Below are positions 256 to 63,962 of a stretch of DNA of 64,000 nt, in pieces. The position numbers were made by a program, and so were the translations under genes. Origin of the DNA: a virus. The notes beneath the pieces were generated by a model that worked only from the letters and a program-made list of their open reading frames with translations, was not told the origin of the DNA and searched no databases. Within the stretch, counting starts at the first letter, position 1. Each line of letters starts with the position of its first letter. Where the stretch lies: positions 1-64,000 of IMG/VR virus record IMGVR_UViG_3300021085_000019, one strand, 5' to 3'.

Positions 256-263
256 TATAAATA
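256..263 (+). promoter_or_regulatory. Late promoter box TATAAATA before gene 25
   Basis: Exact match to the T4 late promoter -10 box. It ends 5 bases before the gene 25 ATG, so the expected start of transcription coincides with the ATG. An AAGGAG stretch (250-255) abuts the box on its upstream side, 13 bases from the ATG; it could serve read-through mRNA from gene 5 but would not be part of a transcript made from this box. Confidence 0.6.
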
Positions 264-268
264 CTAGT

Positions 269-793
269 ATGTCTATTAAAACAATTAACTCAAGTTCCGA
301 TCGATCTGCCCAGCCGTATGATAGCCAAACGATAACACTCGGCGATGGTACGAAAGTTGAGCAATCTACTGGTATTATTGGTGATCTGCAAAAAGCATCA
401 AGATCGGCAAGACTAAAGCCATGGACTGATCTTGATTTAAGCTTAGTCCTTCATCCAATACGTAAAGATATTATTCCACTTAGGGATGATCAGGCAATCA
501 AGTACTCAGTACGTAATTTGTTATTGACTAACTTTTATGAGAGACCATTTAACCTGGGTATAGGCGCCAATATGAGAGCCCTATTGTTTGAACCAGCAGA
601 TGAAATTACAAAGGCGACACTACGTAAAAATATCGTACGATGTCTTACTACAACAGAGAGTCGAGTGACACCGATCTTTGTAAACATAGTCGATGAGCCA
701 GATACGAATACATATCGTATTCTGGTAAAATTCAGAATAAAAGAGGATGATTCTGCAGATGAAGTAGAAATTGTTCTCAGACGTTTAAGGTAA
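269..793 (+). CDS. 25: Baseplate wedge subunit gp25
   Basis: A 174-residue protein of the gp25/GPW baseplate family, which sits in the inner wedge ring next to gp6 and is needed for sheath assembly. The recognisable core runs from about residue 50 to the end: the LLFEP segment near residue 107 matches the conserved E-P region of the family, and the C-terminal half has the alternating strands (ESRVTPIFVN, YRILVKFRI) of T4 gp25. It is longer than T4 gp25 (132 residues) because of a polar N-terminal extension of about 45 residues. The ATG at 269 is the only sensible start after the gene 5 stop at 251. It has no well-placed Shine-Dalgarno but a late promoter box five bases upstream. Confidence 0.9.
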   Translation: MSIKTINSSSDRSAQPYDSQTITLGDGTKVEQSTGIIGDLQKASRSARLKPWTDLDLSLVLHPIRKDIIPLRDDQAIKYSVRNLLLTNFYERPFNLGIGANMRALLFEPADEITKATLRKNIVRCLTTTESRVTPIFVNIVDEPDTNTYRILVKFRIKEDDSADEVEIVLRRLR

Positions 794-18700: not shown

Positions 18701-21198
18701 ATCACACTTATGGTGATGGCGGTACTGCATATGTAATTCCGCTTCCATCAGAAAGTATGAGTGGGTTTACTATTCACGATGGTGATGGTACACAAAGACC
18801 AATCGCTGATAGTAAAGAAATAAAATTCCAAGAAGGTACTACTTCTGCAGTTAGAAGTGGTGATGATTATATTCAAATTAATTGGACTGACACATCTCAT
18901 GGTTCAGATACCGATCCTTATGATTTAACATTTGCCCATAAACTTACTACTCGTACTGATCCAGCTTTAGGTTCAGCTTTACTTGCTTTTGGAGGTAATT
19001 TTACTGCTGTTACTGGTGTAACCACAAATCCTACAGGTCACGTTACTGCGATTAATACTACTCAGTTTACTTTACCTACAGAAACAGCACGTAATAATGG
19101 TCTATTGACCATGTCCACTTTAGCTGGACTTGATGGTAGTGCAACGTTTTCAGCTGATCAGGCCGGTCCCTCAACATTTACAGTTTCACTAGACTTATCT
19201 GAACTTACTGATATGACACCTGATGTTGATGGTGCGGTTGATGAACTTATCTTACTTGACAATAGTGTAGAAAAAAGAAAGCGCATTGGAGAAATTAAGC
19301 TAGGTCAGTTTGTTAATGACCAAGGTTGGACGGATAATGAAGGTGATATTACACAAGTTAATATTACAGCAGGTAACGGTTTAACAGGTAGTAAAAATAC
19401 TACATCTGGTAATCACGTACAAACTATTCACGTTGGTGCTGGTGCTCTTATTGATGTTCGAGCTGATCATGTTGATGTCGATCTAAACGAACTTAGCGAC
19501 ATGGGCGATTCCACTGCAGTTGTTGGAACAACAGATTATTTACCAATTCTTGATAGTGGTGTACAGAAGAAAAAGAAAATTAGTACAATTACACTAAGTG
19601 ACTTTGACAATGATAATGGTTGGACGGATAATGACGGTACTGTGACAAGTGTGGGAATAACTCCCGGTACAGGATTAGATGTAAGTAATACACCGATTAC
19701 AACTAGCGGTAATATAAGTATCTCTTTAGACTTATCAGACCTTACTGATATGACTGCAACGGTTAATAGAGATCAAGACGAACTTATATTGCTTGATAAT
19801 GGAGCCGAACGTAGAAAGCTGACTAAGGAAATTGGACTGTCAGTCTTTAACAATGACCTTGGAAACTATGGAGGTTTCTCTACAACCGATACATTCTTAA
19901 GTGATGTAACAGCTATCACTGATAATACAACCGATATTAAATTGGTTCACACAATGTCTAACGCCGCTACCCACGATATTGTTATAGAAGCTGGATCTGG
20001 TATTACACTAACAGATAATGCTAATAATGATTATGCGTTTGAAATCTCTGTTAATGAATCTGATCTTGACTTTGATAACTATGCGCATTGGAGATTTAAG
20101 GAAGGTAATGGTACTGAGACTGGTATTATTACTTCAGAAGATACTTTACACTTCGCTCAAGACGGTATTACTACTGTTGAAAAGACCGCTGATGATCAAT
20201 TGACGATTAGTACTCCAGGCACAGATTTATCTAATACTACTACCACTACTAAAGTCACTGTTGCATCGAGTACTGGTAATAATACTGATATATTAGAAGC
20301 CACGGGTTCAAGAGCTGGTGTAATGACAGTTGCGCATCATGATAAACTTGATGCTATTGCACCAAGTGCTGAAGTTAACCAAAATGCATTTAGTAATCTC
20401 ATGGCGAATACATATGATTCTAGTACTCAGACTGGAATAAATGTTGCAGTACTTTCTGCAGATAGTAAAACAGATACATTTACTATTGAAACTGGTCATG
20501 GATTTACAACTACAGCAACTTCTTCTTCTGATTCAATGACAATCAATAGAAATAATGATTGGAGAACAAAATACGATAACGATAATGCTTACGTAGGTAA
20601 TAAGAGTAAAGAATACATATACTTTGATCCAGCTGGAGAAGTTAAGTTATACTCTCATGGCGTAGAAAATGTAAGATTTTATAACCCTAGCGGGACCGTA
20701 AATAGTGTCATGTATTTCCCGCATTCAATGGGCCCAGCTATGGGTATTAAAAGTAGTGAGGGTACTGGAAGTAATAAGTTAGAGATATTTGCTGAAAACA
20801 CTGGTAACCTAGATGCGAAATTTATATTTACTCATGCTGGAGCGTTACATGTACATGATGATATTACAGCTTTCTCATCATCAACTGCCTCTGATGTTAA
20901 ACTCAAAGAAAATATTGAAAGAGTTGAAGGTGCATTAGATAAAGTATCACAATTAGATGGCGTAACATTTACTTGGAAGAGAGACGGAAAAGAATCTGCT
21001 GGTGTTATTGCACAAAATGTAGAAGAGGTATTACCATCTGCAGTAAAAGAAGTTGAGACAGTAGATGGTGAAGAAATTAATAAGCATGTTGATTATACAC
21101 AATTATCGGCATTGTTCATCGAAGCAATTAAAGAATTAAAAGAAGAAAATAAATTACTTAGAGCTGAGATTGAAAGCTTAAAAGATATAAATAGTTAA
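12706..21198 (+). CDS. Giant tail fibre protein with C-terminal S74 self-cleaving chaperone
   Basis: A 2830-residue fibre subunit. Domain order: an N-terminal attachment region (1-300); about ten variants of a helical repeat ending in INELHxEIG or REHEDQIGN (about 300-750), which look like a triple-stranded coiled coil; Gly/Thr shaft repeats with VGGTLGVTGATTL and DGNLRVG units (830-1110); a VEGTQTILNTETLTVED module; three NTDRGSVAA blocks (about 1260, 1310, 1570); three DLSDLTDM...DELILLDN blocks (2160-2390); and a C-terminal S74 intramolecular chaperone. In the last, Ser2729 in SDVKLKENI is the expected self-cleavage point, releasing about 102 residues that include IAQNVEEVLP and a final coiled coil. 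S74 domains trimerise and then detach from phage fibres. Start overlaps the preceding stop by one base. Confidence 0.88.
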   Translation: MANKETRIYKTDTLETLRQKSNEISLHLGDNEQLNSLMADKTYVYSAAAGDTLFAGADTSSPAKTARFEVSPTHTVDNTGGYIVLKSVSSLDSSYIPGNIIYQGTSGSASYSATIVSASTDRILVRDSSGNFSTSTDLKVGTGSPDVIAHANIERIVIEANPVGIVRVYKNGTELNQAMVTNGFHVADIRATITHTGSPTLTDFTRGVTIYQGSSQSTQAGVEANADWYGTLHSVSGGVIRVKTYNGNFITSGAGSSIRALGSSNTITSHGSLTAIDNTYGSYIELTTPASSSDQIKVFSLDVVAAINELQDDIGGVESLTTAANNLVLAINEHDAELGTITASAMGTAASTVSTAIREHEDQIGNESISSVDAEDSNNTITGALNQLHAEVGDVTSTNLGTSASNLTAAIREHEDQIGNDNINAISSTNNTIKTALNQLHTEIGSSVLTDNLPTDFAYNVTDHTTATNTMSSFIGNTSIANIGTTDTVTGALQKLHAELGSSSITDNLPTDITYTVTNHTTALNTMSAFIGSTSINNIGAPDTLTGALQSLHGEIGNMVFGSSGPVDTVNSTTLTGAVNVLDAEIGNTNYNSVGTDISTALLNLYNDIYTTASVTGLNTTATHLVGAINELEQDLFNAEGGTKRTRSSLLTSDKTSIVDAINELHTELYTSGASFTGLSANNFKSAINELRAELGDVNDINNATGYSATTAVTGITEIQGDIGNVDALTLEAGTIVGALNEIEAIFDASTREISASSDPFTVTSGSFLINSSGNIVFDNGTNHTVLKKDGVEYARFTKSGTDFQLKAGHLGALFLTASGQNATFANNLTVDNNLEVDGTAGVDGNFRVGVSGSSRFTVAASNGNTSVGGTLGVTGNTTLGGTLGVTGATTLSSTLNVTGAAELVSSLGVDGNLRVGSNKFNVTASNGNTQIDGTLEVDGSTGIDGNFRVGAEGASKFTVTASNGNTTVYGTLGVSQHTSVSSLSASGNASVGGTLGVTGATTLSSTLNVTGATELDSTLGVDGNLRVGNNKFNVTATSGNTQIDGTLEVDGSVGIDGNFRIGSNSPSPKFNVTSSSGNTTIGGTLGVDGNTTIAGTTTITNTTQSSVSSATDGALIVAGGVSIGKNLYVGGNLQVEGTQTILNTETLTVEDTLVLAGNNLSSEPTTGGFGLEVGPITSPSGVASNVTGAHSIVYNYATDRWEADGSLILSTATLATPQVEGVDFGPSDNLTFNAGVGLSETVTKTGATIVTQYVNTDRGSVAAAALNIFSSVVPSSGTTATADNNNDALNLTQGTGISTVGDGDNVITITNTDRGSVAASALRMFKTISLADVPDSTNADVVADSNADILKLRALDAITLTSDSNNDIISIDHDDFGTAGTYGPDVQDGEYIKSITVNSQGHVTAITTDDFDTRYEASDPTWALFNNTTKIDDVASGDTVKFIGGNAIDLVSSHTSGTSTLQFNHANTSSVSSLSSDNSGGNVLQDISLTFDTYGHVTARSIGTVNLDNRYIRSFQVEDGDGTEVTINQANEWKFVEGSGTGATIDINWTDTSNGSNTDPYDLTFTVNNTDRGSVAVAPLRIFKYVASDSGTAEADSTADTLTIAGGTNINTAVVGDTLTINNEYVYNHPTYNGDDFSIDTGLLSGATVISDLDINVTTDTLGHVVDANGTVATRTLIPGDLGIYGWDLHENGSSSPIVNNILNDQVDFVNGNHTTAVVTNPSANNGRVTFNHNTFTSGGTFVGGANNGIVIEDFYIDSYGHVRSVGTRDLDGRYDKYDEWRIQDNGDSTTQYGKVSSATEDSTGYVKFINGTNTTTERGGSGTVSDPHTIKVNFVNPGYISSQRSATFDATQSTANSNNNPYLTMSDAGPHNVKIVGGTNATVTRNSDNQITIAATDTNDDVNDTNLRAKLEALNPDQGIVYIGDTGNDLDLKIRGNLTVLGTQTIMNTETVTTHDNKIELNSNAASTPTEDAGIIVNRGSSTNAQIYWSEASDRWYHTYGDGGTAYVIPLPSESMSGFTIHDGDGTQRPIADSKEIKFQEGTTSAVRSGDDYIQINWTDTSHGSDTDPYDLTFAHKLTTRTDPALGSALLAFGGNFTAVTGVTTNPTGHVTAINTTQFTLPTETARNNGLLTMSTLAGLDGSATFSADQAGPSTFTVSLDLSELTDMTPDVDGAVDELILLDNSVEKRKRIGEIKLGQFVNDQGWTDNEGDITQVNITAGNGLTGSKNTTSGNHVQTIHVGAGALIDVRADHVDVDLNELSDMGDSTAVVGTTDYLPILDSGVQKKKKISTITLSDFDNDNGWTDNDGTVTSVGITPGTGLDVSNTPITTSGNISISLDLSDLTDMTATVNRDQDELILLDNGAERRKLTKEIGLSVFNNDLGNYGGFSTTDTFLSDVTAITDNTTDIKLVHTMSNAATHDIVIEAGSGITLTDNANNDYAFEISVNESDLDFDNYAHWRFKEGNGTETGIITSEDTLHFAQDGITTVEKTADDQLTISTPGTDLSNTTTTTKVTVASSTGNNTDILEATGSRAGVMTVAHHDKLDAIAPSAEVNQNAFSNLMANTYDSSTQTGINVAVLSADSKTDTFTIETGHGFTTTATSSSDSMTINRNNDWRTKYDNDNAYVGNKSKEYIYFDPAGEVKLYSHGVENVRFYNPSGTVNSVMYFPHSMGPAMGIKSSEGTGSNKLEIFAENTGNLDAKFIFTHAGALHVHDDITAFSSSTASDVKLKENIERVEGALDKVSQLDGVTFTWKRDGKESAGVIAQNVEEVLPSAVKEVETVDGEEINKHVDYTQLSALFIEAIKELKEENKLLRAEIESLKDINS
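13610..14950 (+). repeat. Helical INELHxEIG repeats in the 2830-residue fibre
   Basis: Roughly ten diverged protein repeats of about 40-60 residues, each ending in a motif such as AINELQDDIG, AIREHEDQIGN, ALNQLHAEVGD, ALQKLHAELG or AINELRAELGD. Heptad-like leucines and isoleucines suggest a trimeric coiled-coil section of the fibre. Confidence 0.75.
15211..16010 (+). repeat. Tandem 112-residue shaft repeat with an identical 42-base core
   Basis: A repeat unit of 336 bases (112 codons) is present about twice with a shorter first copy. The EVDG...GIDGNFR segment starts at 15211, 15514 and 15850. A 42-base stretch is identical at 15367-15408 and 15703-15744, exactly 336 bases apart. It encodes the GATTLSSTLNVTGA strand pair. 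Confidence 0.85.
21186..21193 (+). promoter_or_regulatory. Late promoter box TATAAATA before the 116-residue gene
   Basis: Exact late box overlapping the last codons of the giant fibre gene. Predicted start near 21199 gives a leader of only about 12 bases (AGGAATTGAGGA) before the ATG at 21211. Confidence 0.6.
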
Positions 21199-29500: not shown

Positions 29501-31382
29501 TCATAAAGCTTTATTCATTGATGTAGATTCTACTGCAACCGGAGGCACCACAGCAGACGAGCATAGACTTTATGGAATGCATATTGATATAGATTTTAGT
29601 GGCGATAGCGATATAGTTTACGGTTCTTTAGTTCAAGCCGAATCTAATACGACTGCTGGCCAGGTGACTAGTTTATATGGTGTTTACGGCCAGGCCGTAA
29701 ACGATACTTCAGGCACTGGTAAAGTACTAAACTCATATGGCGGATATTTTAATGCACAGTTTCAGCATAGCTCTACAAATACAACTAGAGATCAAAATAT
29801 AATAGGTGCTTACGCACGTGCCGCAGTCGTAGCTTCAGCTGATGGCGGTGGAATGAATGATGTTACTGGCTTATTTGCTGAAGTTGAAATTGATGATATA
29901 GGCCAGGCCGGAGTAATGGATAATATATATGTTGTAAGAGCATATTATGACAATGATGATACAGCTAATAATTATCTGGATATGGGATCCACATATCTAT
30001 TTCATGGAACATACGCTGGCGGAATTCCTGCTAATGCAAATAGTGCTTATGGTATGTACATTAGCACTAATGTTAATAACTACTTATTGGGCTCTTTAGG
30101 AATTGGTATTCAAACAACCGGTCAGAGCTGGCCCTACAAATTAGACGTCCAAGGAGAAGCTAATAAAGCTGCAACTAGAATAAGAAATAATACTGTTACT
30201 AGCTCTGATTGGTGGTCAAATTCACAAGCTGCATTACTTATAGGAAATGTTGATACAAGCCAATCAGCTATACTAAAGTTTGATCGTGCATCAAGCAGAA
30301 TCGTATATGGTTCCAGCAGCACTGATGATAGATTAGTTTTCTCGTCACGTCATTCAACTTCAGCTAGTTCTGATCAAGTAGTATTTGACAATAACGGAAA
30401 CGTAGGTTTAGGAACTACAGCTCCGGGTCAACAGCTTCATATTAAGAAAACTGTAACTGCTACAACAACTGCAGGTTTGGCTGGTATTAGATTGCAAAAT
30501 GATGATACAAATACTAATTCTAAAACTGGTATTGTATTTCAAAAAGCTAGGCCAACATCTGGAACTTCTACTTCATACTTGTATCAAGACTCATATAATG
30601 TGACTATGGACTGCGATGAAGCATTCACTGTTAAGACTAACGGTAGTAATTCATTACACATAGCCGGAACAGGCCTCATCGGGATTAACAATCCTGGTCC
30701 AGATTATAGACTGGATATTGGAAATCAATCGTCTCCATCTACTACTAACACTATAAGAATTGGACAGCAGAATAGTGGAACAGCAATTCGTATTGGTGCA
30801 GGTGGCGGCTCTTCAGATGTAGTACTACTCAGAGTTGATGGTGATAGTACTGATAATAAACATGATGGTACAACAGATGCTGGAGCATATGGATTTTCGC
30901 TAAAGTATATGGGCTCTAGATCAGGAAATGAAAATGCACTTGCGATCATGTCTGATAATGGCGGTAATGTTACTCAGGTAGAAGCATTGACGGTATTACA
31001 GGCCGGTGAAGTTGGAATATTTAATGCATCACCTAAAGCTAGATTCCAAGTAGAAGAATACGGAATTGATACAACAGAAACATCGTCTTCGGCTACTACT
31101 GAAATTGCTATACACACTTTCCCAATTGCTGACTTTAGAAGCGCCAGGTTTACAGTTCAAGTTACTAATTCAACTGATAATACATATCACACAACTGAGT
31201 TATTGGCTTTACATGATGGAACAACTGCAAATATTACGGAGTTTGGAACAGTATTTACCGGATCAGCCATTGAAGCTCAGTTTGACGCGGACGTAAATTC
31301 TGGAAACTTTAGACTATTAGCAACTCCTTCTTCTACAGATAGCATGGAATTTAAAGTTGTATGTCATAGTTTGACAGTTTAA
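23574..31382 (+). CDS. Giant tail fibre protein (2602 residues) with VGIGT-repeat shaft, TTG start
   Basis: The frame starts at TTG 23574, eight bases after AGGAGA (23560-23565); no ATG gives the conserved N-terminus. That N-terminus, RKTDIRLRRSNTENAIP then LNDGELAMNTYDGALYFK, is a fibre attachment motif like that of the 557-residue protein. The shaft carries about eighteen copies of the VGIGTTxPxxKLHV motif, each a turn followed by a strand pair. Near residues 440-560 lies a separate beta-rich insert (ALTKGDVVYISG ... GDELYVNVLAGTLT). Near 980-1030 it has the GNLTVNGSVTTLNTATLTVDD module shared with other fibres. The C-terminus ends in a beta-rich domain (about 2495-2602, FPIADFRSARFTVQVTNS region) without an S74 chaperone. 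Likely a receptor-binding fibre subunit. Confidence 0.85.
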   Translation: MARKTDIRLRRSNTENAIPTHTNLNDGELAMNTYDGALYFKKSDNTIITAHDNTILHLNSNTSRVGIGTTSPAGNLHVKSVGDVGDALLIVEADADNNVEGDNPKIELRQDSGFVTGAMYLEGNAASQATNSLQNGFLLDAKGASSDGGTIQFATGGLAANQSGGPTNSAVRMTILRDGNIAIGQITSSHKLTVAGNTFLSGDNRHVYFGGNNTFIGENSSSSKLELRGGGSSSSETVYVNSNGAVGIGIIAPTEKLHVVGNAIFHSGAAYGDLVVGRGSNQEIKLYVSDANTQIIGYQDSDSDGNHSFDIIREFDGAGENDFTIRKGSGSVQFDINKDGNITFNNAFTFPNADGQADQILKTNGSGTLTWANDSGGGSSVSLSDSDNDTLIQVEESNDEDIIRFDVAGSEVAQMTDDGLILNDGYNFEGDVIGAIKFKAQAGEALTKGDVVYISGISGNTTVVSKADANDAAKMPAFGLAASTVSLNAAVQIVTFGTLQGIDTSSYSEGDELYVNVLAGTLTDSAPTGSSSALQKIAKVTRSDASAGSVKVSGAGRTNATPNLDEGKIFVGNASNKSVQGDDTLHVDMANSRVGINKASPDRSLHIDGTVRIDGGTGVVSTGVLEVMQNGDTANNAIALTSSNAVSTRIWKNGSGTFFIGSSSANNAFQQLVNGNTTINAQEFTIAHANPTLILKDTTDDDDHNILFKDSSDNTIAKISTALPVMDDLNIGTVTAREFNLFTNNTTAMSIDTSQNSVFAGDVSILTGTSAKQASDMLYIGGSGLGSTDAAIYLGNAGDGTGYGWRFFYKGSGDGNENRLIIRSENSGSPVDALSFTQNGQALFGDSIVMGNSEKIYFLSNGDANTGSSYWYRAGGNATRLLYRDNVLVFDAYQDHSAEFRNSNDDIIFKVTPNATATNSATIVSNGNFSIANGALNIGGSELSDNNRNVTTNNLTVGGNLTVNGSVTTLNTATLTVDDLNITIADGAANAAAANGAGITVDGANATITYTSAQDEWNFNKNVVIGGKDTTASFPLMIRSDSAHKGLHIEENAGAESWQMGVSVTGDLHFYNSGSNTASVTFEDSGDVGIGVSAPGQKLDVAGNVRVTNNAAFMGTNVAGSSRSLVHLGNDNILRIKGNDSEGSANVMSMIAGGSVGIGTTAPIAKLDVNGSINVKQATSIALAQDTSSTVAILIPRGLKIASNTTGDYIRNIIEHGGTTGNGPINIGQQGTAIITDINLYPGSSGKMQVFSDGTSTAKVVIDSAGKMSIGNNNPEYNLDIRGDSPVLRIADDNLNNVEDAAAIWFGENDTSESRGAGITYDGANNALHFRTSNNGATLTDPFDSEKRMTILETNGNVGINITDPDEKLEVNGSIKVDYSSTNANMFKQGNAFGGGSITPFNNSGHFVFNVEYTAGDSDYIWRVNDTTELMRLEEQGQLGIGTNNPTERLHVSNITGGETKIRIDSLDNARNNYIGITGHDNLVLSADAGQEGADSSIRFNVDNAEVGRFTHHGRFGVGGIIPATTLEISDSAPKLRITDTRNISWTVGDTMASIEFDSDDSSGGAGTSAEPRAAITMYAASTFGSSTGLAFYTKSDTTDYPTRQMVITNDGKVAIGTLTANAKLHVSDASAPTFRLSRTGTGQIWQQSIDSSGRFLLQEGASEGGTKYTRFAIDDDGNVGIGTGDPGRKLHVEGDNNTAITVVSPNTNYAQLALGDTDDDNYAQLILDNATNKLQLQNGGGGVVGERGITLDSSEKVGIGTSSPREELEVNGTIFATPASYASNQNTYVLKVGATNNTAWDGMGFKLKSLSGGSPYLSVMGSPSVETMVWKSQHVGMGIADPSVSGSRTTLHIDNVSNGSAIRLSQNDSGALFRYDTTAGLKIGTISTENLTLETDDVARLVIAADTGNVLIGTNTVQPEKLYVNGATRIVGQGNTQPAFEVFTSQDNDATDDYNAMVIDYNVTGSQTIVSDDTLHKALFIDVDSTATGGTTADEHRLYGMHIDIDFSGDSDIVYGSLVQAESNTTAGQVTSLYGVYGQAVNDTSGTGKVLNSYGGYFNAQFQHSSTNTTRDQNIIGAYARAAVVASADGGGMNDVTGLFAEVEIDDIGQAGVMDNIYVVRAYYDNDDTANNYLDMGSTYLFHGTYAGGIPANANSAYGMYISTNVNNYLLGSLGIGIQTTGQSWPYKLDVQGEANKAATRIRNNTVTSSDWWSNSQAALLIGNVDTSQSAILKFDRASSRIVYGSSSTDDRLVFSSRHSTSASSDQVVFDNNGNVGLGTTAPGQQLHIKKTVTATTTAGLAGIRLQNDDTNTNSKTGIVFQKARPTSGTSTSYLYQDSYNVTMDCDEAFTVKTNGSNSLHIAGTGLIGINNPGPDYRLDIGNQSSPSTTNTIRIGQQNSGTAIRIGAGGGSSDVVLLRVDGDSTDNKHDGTTDAGAYGFSLKYMGSRSGNENALAIMSDNGGNVTQVEALTVLQAGEVGIFNASPKARFQVEEYGIDTTETSSSATTEIAIHTFPIADFRSARFTVQVTNSTDNTYHTTELLALHDGTTANITEFGTVFTGSAIEAQFDADVNSGNFRLLATPSSTDSMEFKVVCHSLTV

Positions 31383-41742: not shown

Positions 41743-41750
41743 TATAAATA
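41743..41750 (+). promoter_or_regulatory. Late promoter box TATAAATA before the 64-residue gene
   Basis: Exact late box ending five bases before the ATG at 41756; the expected transcription start falls on the ATG. AAGG directly upstream of the box is 13 bases from the ATG and would not be transcribed from it. Confidence 0.6.
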
Positions 41751-41755
41751 GAAGC

Positions 41756-41950
41756 ATGCAAGCTAATTTTAAGTATAATAAATCAACTGGAGAACTTACA
41801 ATCGTAGATAAAGATGGTGAGGAAATGTCAGTACACGCAGAAATTACATCTGATACACCGACTAGAGTATTGTTTTATGTGCAATGCGACGTCGAAGATG
41901 ATTTTAGTTTATATCCATATTTAGAACCAGGAGTTGACGATGGCGACTAG
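41756..41950 (+). CDS. Small acidic protein of unknown function
   Basis: A 64-residue protein, strongly acidic, especially in the last 20 residues (CDVEDDFSLYPYLEPGVDDG). It opens MQANFKYNKSTGELTIVDKDG, which reads as two beta strands. I do not recognise a family. No ribosome site stands at the right distance; a late promoter box ends five bases before the ATG. The last 11 bases overlap the next gene's start at 41940, whose ribosome site (AGGAG, 41929-41933) lies inside this gene, so it may also serve to couple translation. Confidence 0.65.
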   Translation: MQANFKYNKSTGELTIVDKDGEEMSVHAEITSDTPTRVLFYVQCDVEDDFSLYPYLEPGVDDGD

Positions 41951-56091: not shown

Positions 56092-56099
56092 TATAAATA
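56092..56099 (+). promoter_or_regulatory. Late promoter box TATAAATA before gene 20
   Basis: Exact late box just after gene 19. Predicted start near 56105, four bases before an 8-bp hairpin; leader about 49 bases. Confidence 0.72.
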
Positions 56100-56108
56100 A
56101 TATTAGAT

Positions 56109-56129
56109 GAGGGGAGTTGTTCTCCCCTC
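56109..56129 (+). promoter_or_regulatory. Hairpin at the 5' end of the gene 20 leader
   Basis: GAGGGGAG (56109-56116), loop TTGTT, CTCCCCTC (56122-56129): a perfect 8-bp, GC-rich stem. There is no run of T after it, so it is a poor terminator candidate for gene 19. It lies just downstream of the late promoter box and would sit at the very 5' end of the gene 20 mRNA. Confidence 0.65.
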
Positions 56130-56153
56130 TGATAATATTGAGGTAAATAAAAA

Positions 56154-61051: not shown

Positions 61052-61080
61052 AAGGGGACTCTTCGGAGTCCCTTTTTTTT
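61052..61080 (+). terminator. Factor-independent terminator after gene 23
   Basis: Stem AAGGGGACTC (61052-61061), loop TTCG, then GAGTCCCTT paired back (one G-T pair), running into eight T (61073-61080). A C(UUCG)G loop is exceptionally stable. It ends the head-gene transcript 21 bases after the gene 23 stop. Confidence 0.95.
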
Positions 61081-61098
61081 ATTTGACTTTTAAACTTG

Positions 61099-61106
61099 TA
61101 TAAATA
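61099..61106 (+). promoter_or_regulatory. Late promoter box TATAAATA before gene 3
   Basis: Exact late box between the gene 23 terminator and gene 3. It ends five bases before the ATG at 61112, where transcription is expected to begin. Confidence 0.8.
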
Positions 61107-61111
61107 AGTGT

Positions 61112-61570
61112 ATGACTACTGCAAATAAAAACTTTTTAAGTCCCACTGGGTTTCAATTTAAAATCGATTCTACTCAATATGCAAACATTGAGTATTTTTG
61201 TACATCCGTAACTCTTCCTGATCTGTCGTTAGGTGAATCAGCAGCTCCATATAAAGGAACTAATTTATCTTTTACTGGGGATAGAATGACTTTTGGTGAT
61301 TTAACCCTTAGGTTTAATGTAACTGAAGACATGGAGAATTATGTTGAAATGTTTAACTGGATGCATAACATTATTGAAAAGGGAGATTCCTTTAAATCAG
61401 ATGCAACGTTATCAATTCTAAGTAGTCACAATAACGTAACGAAAGAAATTACATTTAGGGATTGTTTCCCTACAAATTTATCAGCAGTAGAGTTCTCTAC
61501 ACAGCAAACCGATATAGAATACTTACAAGCTGATGTTACATTGAAATACACTTACTTCGATATAAAGTAG
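61112..61570 (+). CDS. 3: Tail tube terminator / tail completion protein gp3
   Basis: A 152-residue protein (T4 gp3: 176). It shares with T4 gp3 the MFNWMHNII segment (T4: MYEWMLA), the LSAVEFS strand (T4: LSEVELS) and the C-terminal YTYFDIK (T4: YTYFQVE), and sits between 23 and uvsY as in marine T4-like phages. gp3 forms the ring that ends tail tube growth below gp15. It is also visibly related to gp19 here, as expected for tube-like rings. There is no Shine-Dalgarno: the 31 bases between the gene 23 terminator and the ATG hold only a late promoter, so the message is probably leaderless. Confidence 0.88.
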   Translation: MTTANKNFLSPTGFQFKIDSTQYANIEYFCTSVTLPDLSLGESAAPYKGTNLSFTGDRMTFGDLTLRFNVTEDMENYVEMFNWMHNIIEKGDSFKSDATLSILSSHNNVTKEITFRDCFPTNLSAVEFSTQQTDIEYLQADVTLKYTYFDIK

Positions 61571-61574
61571 CATA

Positions 61575-61582
61575 TATAAATA
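61575..61582 (+). promoter_or_regulatory. Late promoter box TATAAATA before uvsY
   Basis: Exact late box five bases after the gene 3 stop. Predicted start near 61588, leader about 48 bases. In T4 uvsY is also read from middle promoters; I see no clear MotA box here. Confidence 0.6.
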
Positions 61583-61585
61583 TAT

Positions 61586-61617
61586 ATTGTAATGCATATT
61601 GTAATGCATATTACAAT
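61586..61617 (+). repeat. Tandem 12-base repeat and hairpin in the uvsY leader
   Basis: ATTGTAATGCAT occurs twice in tandem (61586-61597, 61598-61609), then ATTACAAT (61610-61617). Either copy of ATTGTAAT can pair with the last element; the nearer pairing gives an 8-bp stem with a GCAT loop. Confidence 0.75.
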
Positions 61618-61635
61618 GTATAAAATGGAAATATT

Positions 61636-62082: not shown

Positions 62083-63590
62083 TGGATCAGATAGTAGTTA
62101 AAAAGAAAAATGAAGTCTTTTTAAGTATAGACACAGAGCCGAGCATAGAAATGGAACTATCCGAGCATTTTTGCTTTTATGTTCCTGGATATAAGTTCAT
62201 GCCGGCATATCGCAATCGTATGTGGGATGGTAAGATACGGCTATATGATTTGCGTAAACAACAGCTGTATAGTGGATTGTTTAAATATTTGTCTGAATTT
62301 GCAGACGCGCGAAATTATGAGATTGTGGTAGAAGATAATTCTGCTTTTGGTAGGCCTGATAGTACTGAGCTTCACGACATTCCCAGCTTCTTAAAAGATG
62401 TAACGCTTACGGCTAACGGAGATAGTATTACACCTAGGGATTATCAATTAGATGCGCTCTCACACGCGCTTCATAGAAAGAGTTCTTTGTTGTTAAGTCC
62501 AACTGCATCTGGAAAAAGCTTAATAATATATTTGGCCATTAGGTATTATCTTGAAATGTATGATAAGAATGTACTAATAATCGTTCCTACTACGTCACTA
62601 GTTGAACAGATGTATTCTGATTTCGGTGATTATTCAGCAAAGGATGAATGGTCGGTTGAGGATAATTGCCATAGAATATATTCTGGTAAAGAAAGATATA
62701 ACCTAAAACATAGAGTGATTATTACTACATGGCAGTCAATTTATAAGATGCAGAGCAATTGGTTTAAGGATTATGGAATGGTTGTTGGTGATGAGGCACA
62801 CAATTTTAAAGCTAAGTCGCTAACTGCAATATTAGAAAAATGTGTTAACGCACAATTTCGTATGGGTACTACTGGAACATTAGATGGTACACAAACCCAT
62901 CAGCTAGTATTAGAGGGGTTGTTTGGTCCTGTACATAAGGTCACAACAACTAAAAAGTTAATTGAAGAAAATTCTTTAGCACAATTAGATATCTTCGTGT
63001 TATTGTTAAAATACGGAGAAGAGTATCGCAAACTTGTGTCAAAGATGAAATATCAAGATGAGATTGATTTTATAGTAAAGTACGAACCAAGGAATAATTT
63101 TATATCTAACCTTGCTATGGATCAGGATGGTAATACACTTATTTTATTTCAATTTGTAGAAAAACACGGTAAGCCACTACATAATATGTTACGCGAGAAG
63201 TTTGACGCATTACCACGTAATACTAGGAGATTATTTTATGTATCAGGAGAGACCGACGTGGATACGAGGGAAGAGATACGAGCAATTACAGAGGAGCAGG
63301 ACAACGCGATTATTGTCGCGAGTATGGGCACTTTTTCTACTGGTATTAATATTAAGCGGCTCCATAACATTGTTTTTGCTTCACCAAGTAAGTCTCAGAT
63401 TAGGGTTCTTCAAAGTATCGGAAGAGGATTAAGGAAATCTGGGGATGGTATAAATACTAAAGTGTATGATATTGCTGATGATCTTCATTGGAAAAATAAG
63501 AAAAATTATACATTAGAGCACGCAGCTGAGAGAATTAAAATATACAGTCGCGAAAAATTTGACTACAAATTACACGATATAAATATATAA
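62082..63590 (+). CDS. uvsW: Recombination/branch-migration helicase UvsW
   Basis: A superfamily 2 helicase of 502 residues that in T4 unwinds R-loops, moves Holliday junctions and helps switch replication from origins to recombination. Seen: an N-terminal DNA-binding part with YRNRMWDGKIRLYD (about 43-56), RDYQLDAL (119-126), Walker A SPTASGKS (139-146), DEAH box (237-240), TGTLDG (264-269) and, near the end, QSIGRGLRKSG as the arginine-finger motif VI. All core motifs are intact. Start overlaps the uvsY stop by one base. A TATAAATA at 63578-63585 near its 3' end serves the next gene. Confidence 0.95.
   Translation: MDQIVVKKKNEVFLSIDTEPSIEMELSEHFCFYVPGYKFMPAYRNRMWDGKIRLYDLRKQQLYSGLFKYLSEFADARNYEIVVEDNSAFGRPDSTELHDIPSFLKDVTLTANGDSITPRDYQLDALSHALHRKSSLLLSPTASGKSLIIYLAIRYYLEMYDKNVLIIVPTTSLVEQMYSDFGDYSAKDEWSVEDNCHRIYSGKERYNLKHRVIITTWQSIYKMQSNWFKDYGMVVGDEAHNFKAKSLTAILEKCVNAQFRMGTTGTLDGTQTHQLVLEGLFGPVHKVTTTKKLIEENSLAQLDIFVLLLKYGEEYRKLVSKMKYQDEIDFIVKYEPRNNFISNLAMDQDGNTLILFQFVEKHGKPLHNMLREKFDALPRNTRRLFYVSGETDVDTREEIRAITEEQDNAIIVASMGTFSTGINIKRLHNIVFASPSKSQIRVLQSIGRGLRKSGDGINTKVYDIADDLHWKNKKNYTLEHAAERIKIYSREKFDYKLHDINI
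63578..63585 (+). promoter_or_regulatory. Late promoter box TATAAATA before the 123-residue gene
   Basis: Exact late box inside the last codons of uvsW, ending five bases before the ATG at 63591; expected transcription start falls on the ATG. Confidence 0.6.
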
Positions 63591-63962
63591 ATGGAAGCTA
63601 TAGATATAAGACACTTTAAACTAACGAATGGCGAAGATCTAATTTGCTATGTCCAGTCGACAAATGAGCATGCCTTTATTGTAGAACGGCCTGCGGCCGT
63701 ACGGGTTTCACCCGCTGGTATATGGACTTTTGCCGATTGGTTTCCATTTTCAGAAAAGAAAGTATTTAAAATAATGAAGCGGTTTGTCATTAATCATACG
63801 GAAGTAGTAGACGAAACAAAAGAGTCATATATAAAGTACTCTTGTCAAGATATGATTAAGAAAGTTCGAGAAACAGTAGAATCGTTTGAAGAATATGGTG
63901 ATGAAATTAATATTGATGAAGCCTTTGAATTTGATGCGGAAGAGAACAAAACAATACATTAG
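63591..63962 (+). CDS. Small acidic protein after uvsW, possible Sm-like fold
   Basis: A 123-residue protein. The first 60 residues read as a small beta barrel: FKLTNGEDLICYVQSTNEHA, then FIVERPAAVRVSP and WFPF. The run of L-x-NGE-x-I-x-x-V with a following strand pair and a PxxV end is like Sm/LSM folds, though I cannot confirm this. The C-terminal part is an acidic helix (MIKKVRETVESFEEYGDEIN, DEAFEFDAEEN). The ATG directly follows the uvsW stop, no ribosome site is present, and a late promoter box ends five bases before it. Function unknown. Confidence 0.7.
   Translation: MEAIDIRHFKLTNGEDLICYVQSTNEHAFIVERPAAVRVSPAGIWTFADWFPFSEKKVFKIMKRFVINHTEVVDETKESYIKYSCQDMIKKVRETVESFEEYGDEINIDEAFEFDAEENKTIH

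Follow-up and report, generated by a model that had tools for sequence, protein, structure and literature searches.

In this virus, gp3 and gp25, along with a small number of further late genes, are very likely expressed from gp55-driven leaderless mRNAs that are translated without a Shine-Dalgarno (SD) sequence, although no 5' end has been mapped. The fixed spacing between promoter and start codon, the existence of two-peaked spacing states and the exclusive use of ATG at these starts suggest that leaderless late mRNA is probably a conserved design in two marine T4-like clades that otherwise use SD sequences. The DNA analyzed is a 64,000-nucleotide stretch (the window) of an 83,652-base viral genome, in which the gp3 locus comprises the following features.

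61052..61080, + strand: intrinsic terminator downstream of gene 23, with a 10-bp stem, a UUCG loop and a T tract
61099..61106, + strand: T4-type late promoter box of gp3, TATAAATA (expected at -13 to -6 by PMC1524935)
61107..61111, + strand: 5-base spacer AGTGT before gp3 (expected at -5 to -1)
61112..61570, + strand: gp3-like tail tube / tail completion gene (PHROG 45, E 3.5e-35)

The terminator hairpin, AAGGGGACTC-TTCG-GAGTCCCTT, occupies 61052-61075 with a T run to approximately 61080, and its folding gave -15.6 kcal/mol (z -3.9). A gene 23/gp3 terminator is also found in C48C1, Mosig, Melnitz and HTVC008M. The gene that follows was identified by PHROG 45, which is tail tube, and its cyanophage homologues are annotated gp3. 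No SD-like word was found between the gene 23 terminator and the gp3 ATG. Terminator, box, 5-base spacer, ATG at 61112 and absence of an SD are all as an earlier interpretation of the letters alone (the sequence-only reading) had described them. In the gp3 frame a stop lies at 61091-61093 and no further ATG, GTG or TTG precedes 61112, making the start unambiguous; a mis-called start was ruled out on these grounds, and homologues with SD leaders have their starts at almost the same position. The gp3 message shows only weak structure at its 5' end. Beyond gp3, the uvsY leader (window 61575-61635) carries a late box and palindromic repeats, ATGCATATTGTAATGCATATTACAATG, without a clear SD; in other relatives uvsY has a 21-base leader with GGAGA instead.

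The T4 late box spans -13 to -6 (PMC1524935). Applied here, this rule and the 5-base spacing together place +1 on the A of the ATG, a start site that is inferred from T4. We propose that these late genes would be transcribed from TATAAATA by the RNA polymerase of the host together with gp55, the phage's late sigma factor, that the 5-base spacing would set the A of the ATG as the first transcribed base, and that the leaderless mRNA would be translated by direct recognition of its 5'-terminal AUG, without an SD. In most other late genes of this phage, the same box would be followed by an SD-bearing leader of at least about 11 bases. The use of gp55, leaderless translation and any advantage that it might confer are likewise inferred. 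Against the proposal stands the fact that the -13/-6 rule comes from T4, no late RNA 5' end of these phages having been mapped.

Spacing is given below as d, the bases that separate the late box from the ATG. The pattern TATAAATA-N5-ATG occurs four times on the forward strand of the 83,652-base genome, in every case at an ORF start (269, 41756, 61112 and 63591); there were no matches on the reverse strand and none for a reversed-pattern control. On its own, the box exceeds chance only about 1.7-fold in the window (20 occurrences versus 11.5 expected). The other three sites are as follows.

256..263, + strand: late box of gp25, spacing 5 (TATAAATA-N5-ATG match)
269..793, + strand: gp25-like baseplate wedge gene, predicted leaderless (PHROG 261, E 1.5e-32)
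41743..41750, + strand: late box of a 64-aa ORF, spacing 5 (TATAAATA-N5-ATG match)
41756..41950, + strand: 64-aa ORF of unknown function, predicted leaderless (TATAAATA-N5-ATG match)
63578..63585, + strand: late box within the uvsW 3' end, spacing 5 (5 or 6 in relatives)
63591..63962, + strand: small PHROG 527 gene starting right after the uvsW stop, predicted leaderless

The sequence-only reading dealt with gene 3; this gene does have d=5, but it shares this spacing with gp25, the 64-aa ORF, the 63591 gene and genes of HTVC008M. The remaining late boxes near genes in the window's genome have d of at least 17 and nearly always an SD in the leader. One of these boxes, at 56092, also lies at d=7 from a 70-aa ORF, which is probably not a real gene and overlaps gene 20. 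The portal gene, gene 20, has a leader (window 56100-56153) that contains, between late box and SD, a conserved two-part hairpin (ATATTA..GAGGGGAG..CTCCCCTC..TAATAT) with compensatory changes in 6 of 13 pairs among 18 aligned phages, possibly a regulatory RNA element.

Spacing was surveyed in two groups of genomes, the first consisting of the window's genome, HTVC008M, Mosig and Melnitz and the second of T4, C48C1 and the cyanophages Syn9, P-HM1 and S-PM2. Gene starts came from a simple ORF caller and not from curated annotation; the public annotation of HTVC008M agrees, placing gene starts at the d=5 ATGs. In the first group, 21 candidate gene starts had the 7-mer ATAAATA exactly 5 bases upstream, versus a mean of 0.6 at the other distances from d=0 to 15 (Poisson tail approximately 2e-25), with 49 occurrences at d=16-40. 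Each of 20 other permutations of the same letters gave 0 to 2 hits at d=5 in these four genomes. The second group, pooled, had 1 occurrence at d=5 and 92 at d=16-40. The HTVC008M genes at d=5 include gp2, gp48, a 'tail tape measure' gene and CsgF, among others. In that genome the ATG of gp2 lies at 18916 (- strand), that of gp48 at 19456 and that of gp25 at 31132.

The genomes of the first group use SD sequences in 57-73% of genes, versus a background of 11-14%. At d=5 the start codon was ATG in 118 of 118 distinct contexts, with no GTG, TTG or other near-start, whereas SD-led ORFs of the same genomes began with ATG in 163 of 185 cases and with GTG or TTG in 22. Many of the 118 contexts are homologous, so that a probability based on independent draws would exaggerate the evidence. 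Of 39 leadered genes, none had an SD that began earlier than position 5 counted from the box, an independent fit to a start site near position 6. What is expected of T4-type late promoters, a box upstream of virion genes, was found, perfect before gp3 and gp25. Sequence marks of a leaderless mRNA were found as well: a promoter element whose constant distance from the start codon places +1 there (by the T4 rule), an AUG start codon and, for gp3, no upstream SD; the window's gp25 has one at long spacing.

Conservation was assessed in 80 IMG/VR loci with gp3 relatives, counts being limited to those with readable upstream DNA. The sequence-only reading had proposed asking whether box-N5-ATG is kept before gene 3 in related phages, and it is, in 60 of the 60 closest readable loci. 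The spacer kept its length among relatives while its letters differed (AGTGT, AATGT, ACAAT, ACAGT, ACTAT, GATAT, GAAAT). This invariant spacing amid varying DNA, together with the T4 rule, supports the earlier suggestion that gp3 is leaderless, its start site remaining an inference. In many close relatives the upstream gene is different or the terminator is missing, and box-N5-ATG is still kept. The idea that gp3 is boxed in by a terminator therefore holds for the hairpin itself but not for its importance, and we rejected the terminator as a necessary reason for the arrangement. A more distant group has a short ORF inserted ahead of gp3, and in that group it is the inserted ORF that has the box 5 bases upstream of its start. 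Mosig-type gp3 had box-N5-ATG in 66 of 76 loci, with a terminator upstream of almost all of them. Window-type gp25 had d=5 in all 72 relatives with upstream DNA; in their alignment the box and ATG columns were invariant (2.0 bits) while spacer and upstream columns varied. The gp2 genes of HTVC008M, Mosig and Melnitz share d=5 at approximately 38-39% protein identity; in C48C1, gp2 has d=27.

Three observations concern gp3 in individual phages. In Melnitz (MZ577097, 129242-129290), the d=5 ATG opens an 8-codon frame that overlaps the SD of gp3 and its start at d=22, so that both states are present at once, perhaps as an intermediate. HTVC008M (NC_020484, 75559-75830) has an 85-aa ORF with box-N5-ATG between the gene 23 terminator and gp3. 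In front of its gp3 stands ACTAAATA-N5-ATG, in which the box is a variant and the spacing is unchanged.

The C48C1 group is the sister of the window's lineage with full support in a seven-protein tree. It resembles the window in having the same late box before gp3, often with the same terminator, but differs in its 21-25 base SD leader, found in 47 of 47 readable loci, and in the absence of the ribosomal protein bS21 (eight IMG/VR records and C48C1). Records of this group showed no excess of N5 sites (3 versus 5 control hits). The gp3 loci L066-L069 likewise have d=21, with the SD GAGG in the leader. A box farther away with a ribosome site in between had been named as a finding that would refute the leaderless reading; such loci do exist, in the C48C1 group and L066-L069, but they form a state of their own. 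The distribution of spacings has two peaks instead of a gradient, and the SD leader of the C48C1 group versus the d=5 of the window type indicates that the two are discrete alternatives. The tree places the window beside C48C1, and the phages of SAR11/OM43 beside cyanophages. This topology excludes a single origin of the d=5 trait without loss and requires two gains or two losses.

An explanation that we consider unlikely is that these genes are translated from longer messages started upstream, by means of an SD before the box, translational coupling or A/U-rich S1 recruitment, the box being incidental or secondary. Gp25 in the window's clade has AAGGAG or AAGAGG just ahead of the box (in the window, AAGGAG, 13 bases from the ATG), and several gp25 genes, like the 63591 gene, follow closely behind an upstream gene; the 63591 gene adjoins the uvsW stop, and coupling could explain its translation. 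However, read-through leaves the exact spacing over hundreds of loci unexplained. Terminators precede gp3 in several lineages and gp2 in Mosig, and in HTVC008M gp2 and its neighbour are divergently oriented, 26 bp apart, which makes read-through from an upstream same-strand gene unlikely there. Moreover, an SD-like word just 5' of the box was present in only 4 of 22 d=5 genes and lacking in the other 18, versus an SD inside the leader in 58 of 73 leadered genes. A hidden SD ahead of the box in all d=5 genes was thereby ruled out, although the four words that do occur could act on read-through mRNA.

Leaderless late mRNA must also be weighed against an ultra-short leader, in which transcription would begin a few bases off, 1-5 bases before the AUG, an arrangement functionally near leaderless. 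We regard this as quite improbable, since the d=5 peak is sharp to a single base in most genes and clades. The case for such a leader draws on HTVC008M-type gp25, which had d=5-9 in 80 of 80 loci (none at d of 10 or more), part of them at d=6-9, and on the many homologues of the 63591 gene with d=6. At the gp25 loci with d=6-9 leaders would be of 4 bases or fewer, and for part of the loci strictly leaderless messages cannot be told apart from messages with 1-4 base leaders. Chance in an AT-rich genome, or shared ancestral sequence without selection, can be practically dismissed despite the mild enrichment of TATAAATA itself, since control words, control spacings and reversed patterns came out near zero, the length stays while spacer letters and upstream DNA diverge, and homologous genes retain the arrangement at about 40% protein identity.

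The phages with predicted leaderless late promoters tend to have a bS21 gene of their own, so that a switch in translation driven by the phage can be tested. A bS21 gene (PF01165) was present in HTVC008M, Mosig and Melnitz, in larger records of the window's clade (G004, G006-G009) and in G021-G025 and G027. PF01165 was absent from T4, KVP40, RB49, Syn9, S-PM2, P-HM1, P-SSM2, S-SM2, S-BM3, C48C1, phiM12, S-SKS1, P-TIM68, DLP6, AG-345-L05, AG-345-O18 and eight C48C1-group records. The 83.6-kb record to which the window belongs lacks bS21; this record is a fragment, however, and the gene is present in five relatives. Counting complete genomes and records of approximately 80 kb or more, bS21 occurred in 10 of 11 from leaderless clades versus 0 of 18 from other clades (Fisher p approximately 5e-7, which overstates independence because the records are related). 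The protein of the window's clade is of the gammaproteobacterial type and that of HTVC008M of the alphaproteobacterial/mitochondrial type (PMC6375957), so the gains look independent, and one phage bS21 shared by both clades is not the simplest reading. Both clades that appear to have gained bS21 separately show the inferred leaderless late promoters, and the examined sister clades lack both features.

We tentatively suggest, as a possibility that we rate as rather doubtful, that phage bS21 re-tunes host ribosomes late in infection to favour leaderless late messages; this functional link is untested. The published example, HTVC008M bS21, enters E. coli ribosomes, and with ribosomes containing it GFP synthesis in vitro was depressed to approximately 5%, which the authors of that study noted may be plain incompatibility (PMC6375957). 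In other phages bS21 is expressed late (PMC9723584), and its presence as a core gene of pelagimyophages, missing from cyanomyophages, has already been published (PMC7029224). Phage-encoded bS21 is thus known from the same phages, but a word search of these three papers found no mention of leaderless messages, and the link is proposed only in the present analysis. Leaderless late mRNA offers a concrete, testable job for phage-encoded bS21, the function of which is still open.

The sequence-only reading knew of no description of leaderless translation for T4-like late genes, and our literature search on leaderless RNA in T4-like phages, cyanophages and pelagiphages likewise found none; nor did we find start-site mapping for cyanophage Syn9. 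As far as we found, no T4-type late promoter has been described as driving leaderless translation of virion genes. The cases inferred here include phages of SAR11, the most abundant ocean bacteria, whose genomes also contain ordinary genes led by an SD. In pelagimyophages, late promoters could not be predicted by the standard approach (PMC7029224); the leaderless design may help to explain this failure, a reason that the paper does not give.

Compared with T4 late promoters (gp55/gp33/gp45; PMC2988020, PMC1524935), the present ones have the same 8-bp TATAAATA box before late structural genes. They differ in that T4 has no late box 5 bases before a called gene start, its spacings running from approximately 12-13 up, mostly with an SD. 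A gp55-type sigma factor is annotated beside this gene block in Melnitz and Mosig. Among phages, lambda cI is a leaderless mRNA. The leaderless mRNAs of mycobacteria (PMC4633059) share a 5'-terminal AUG, the lack of leader and SD, a promoter element at a fixed distance and an ATG-only start. Unlike these bacterial and phage leaderless mRNAs, the messages proposed here would arise from a phage late promoter and encode virion proteins, in genomes that are otherwise SD-using.
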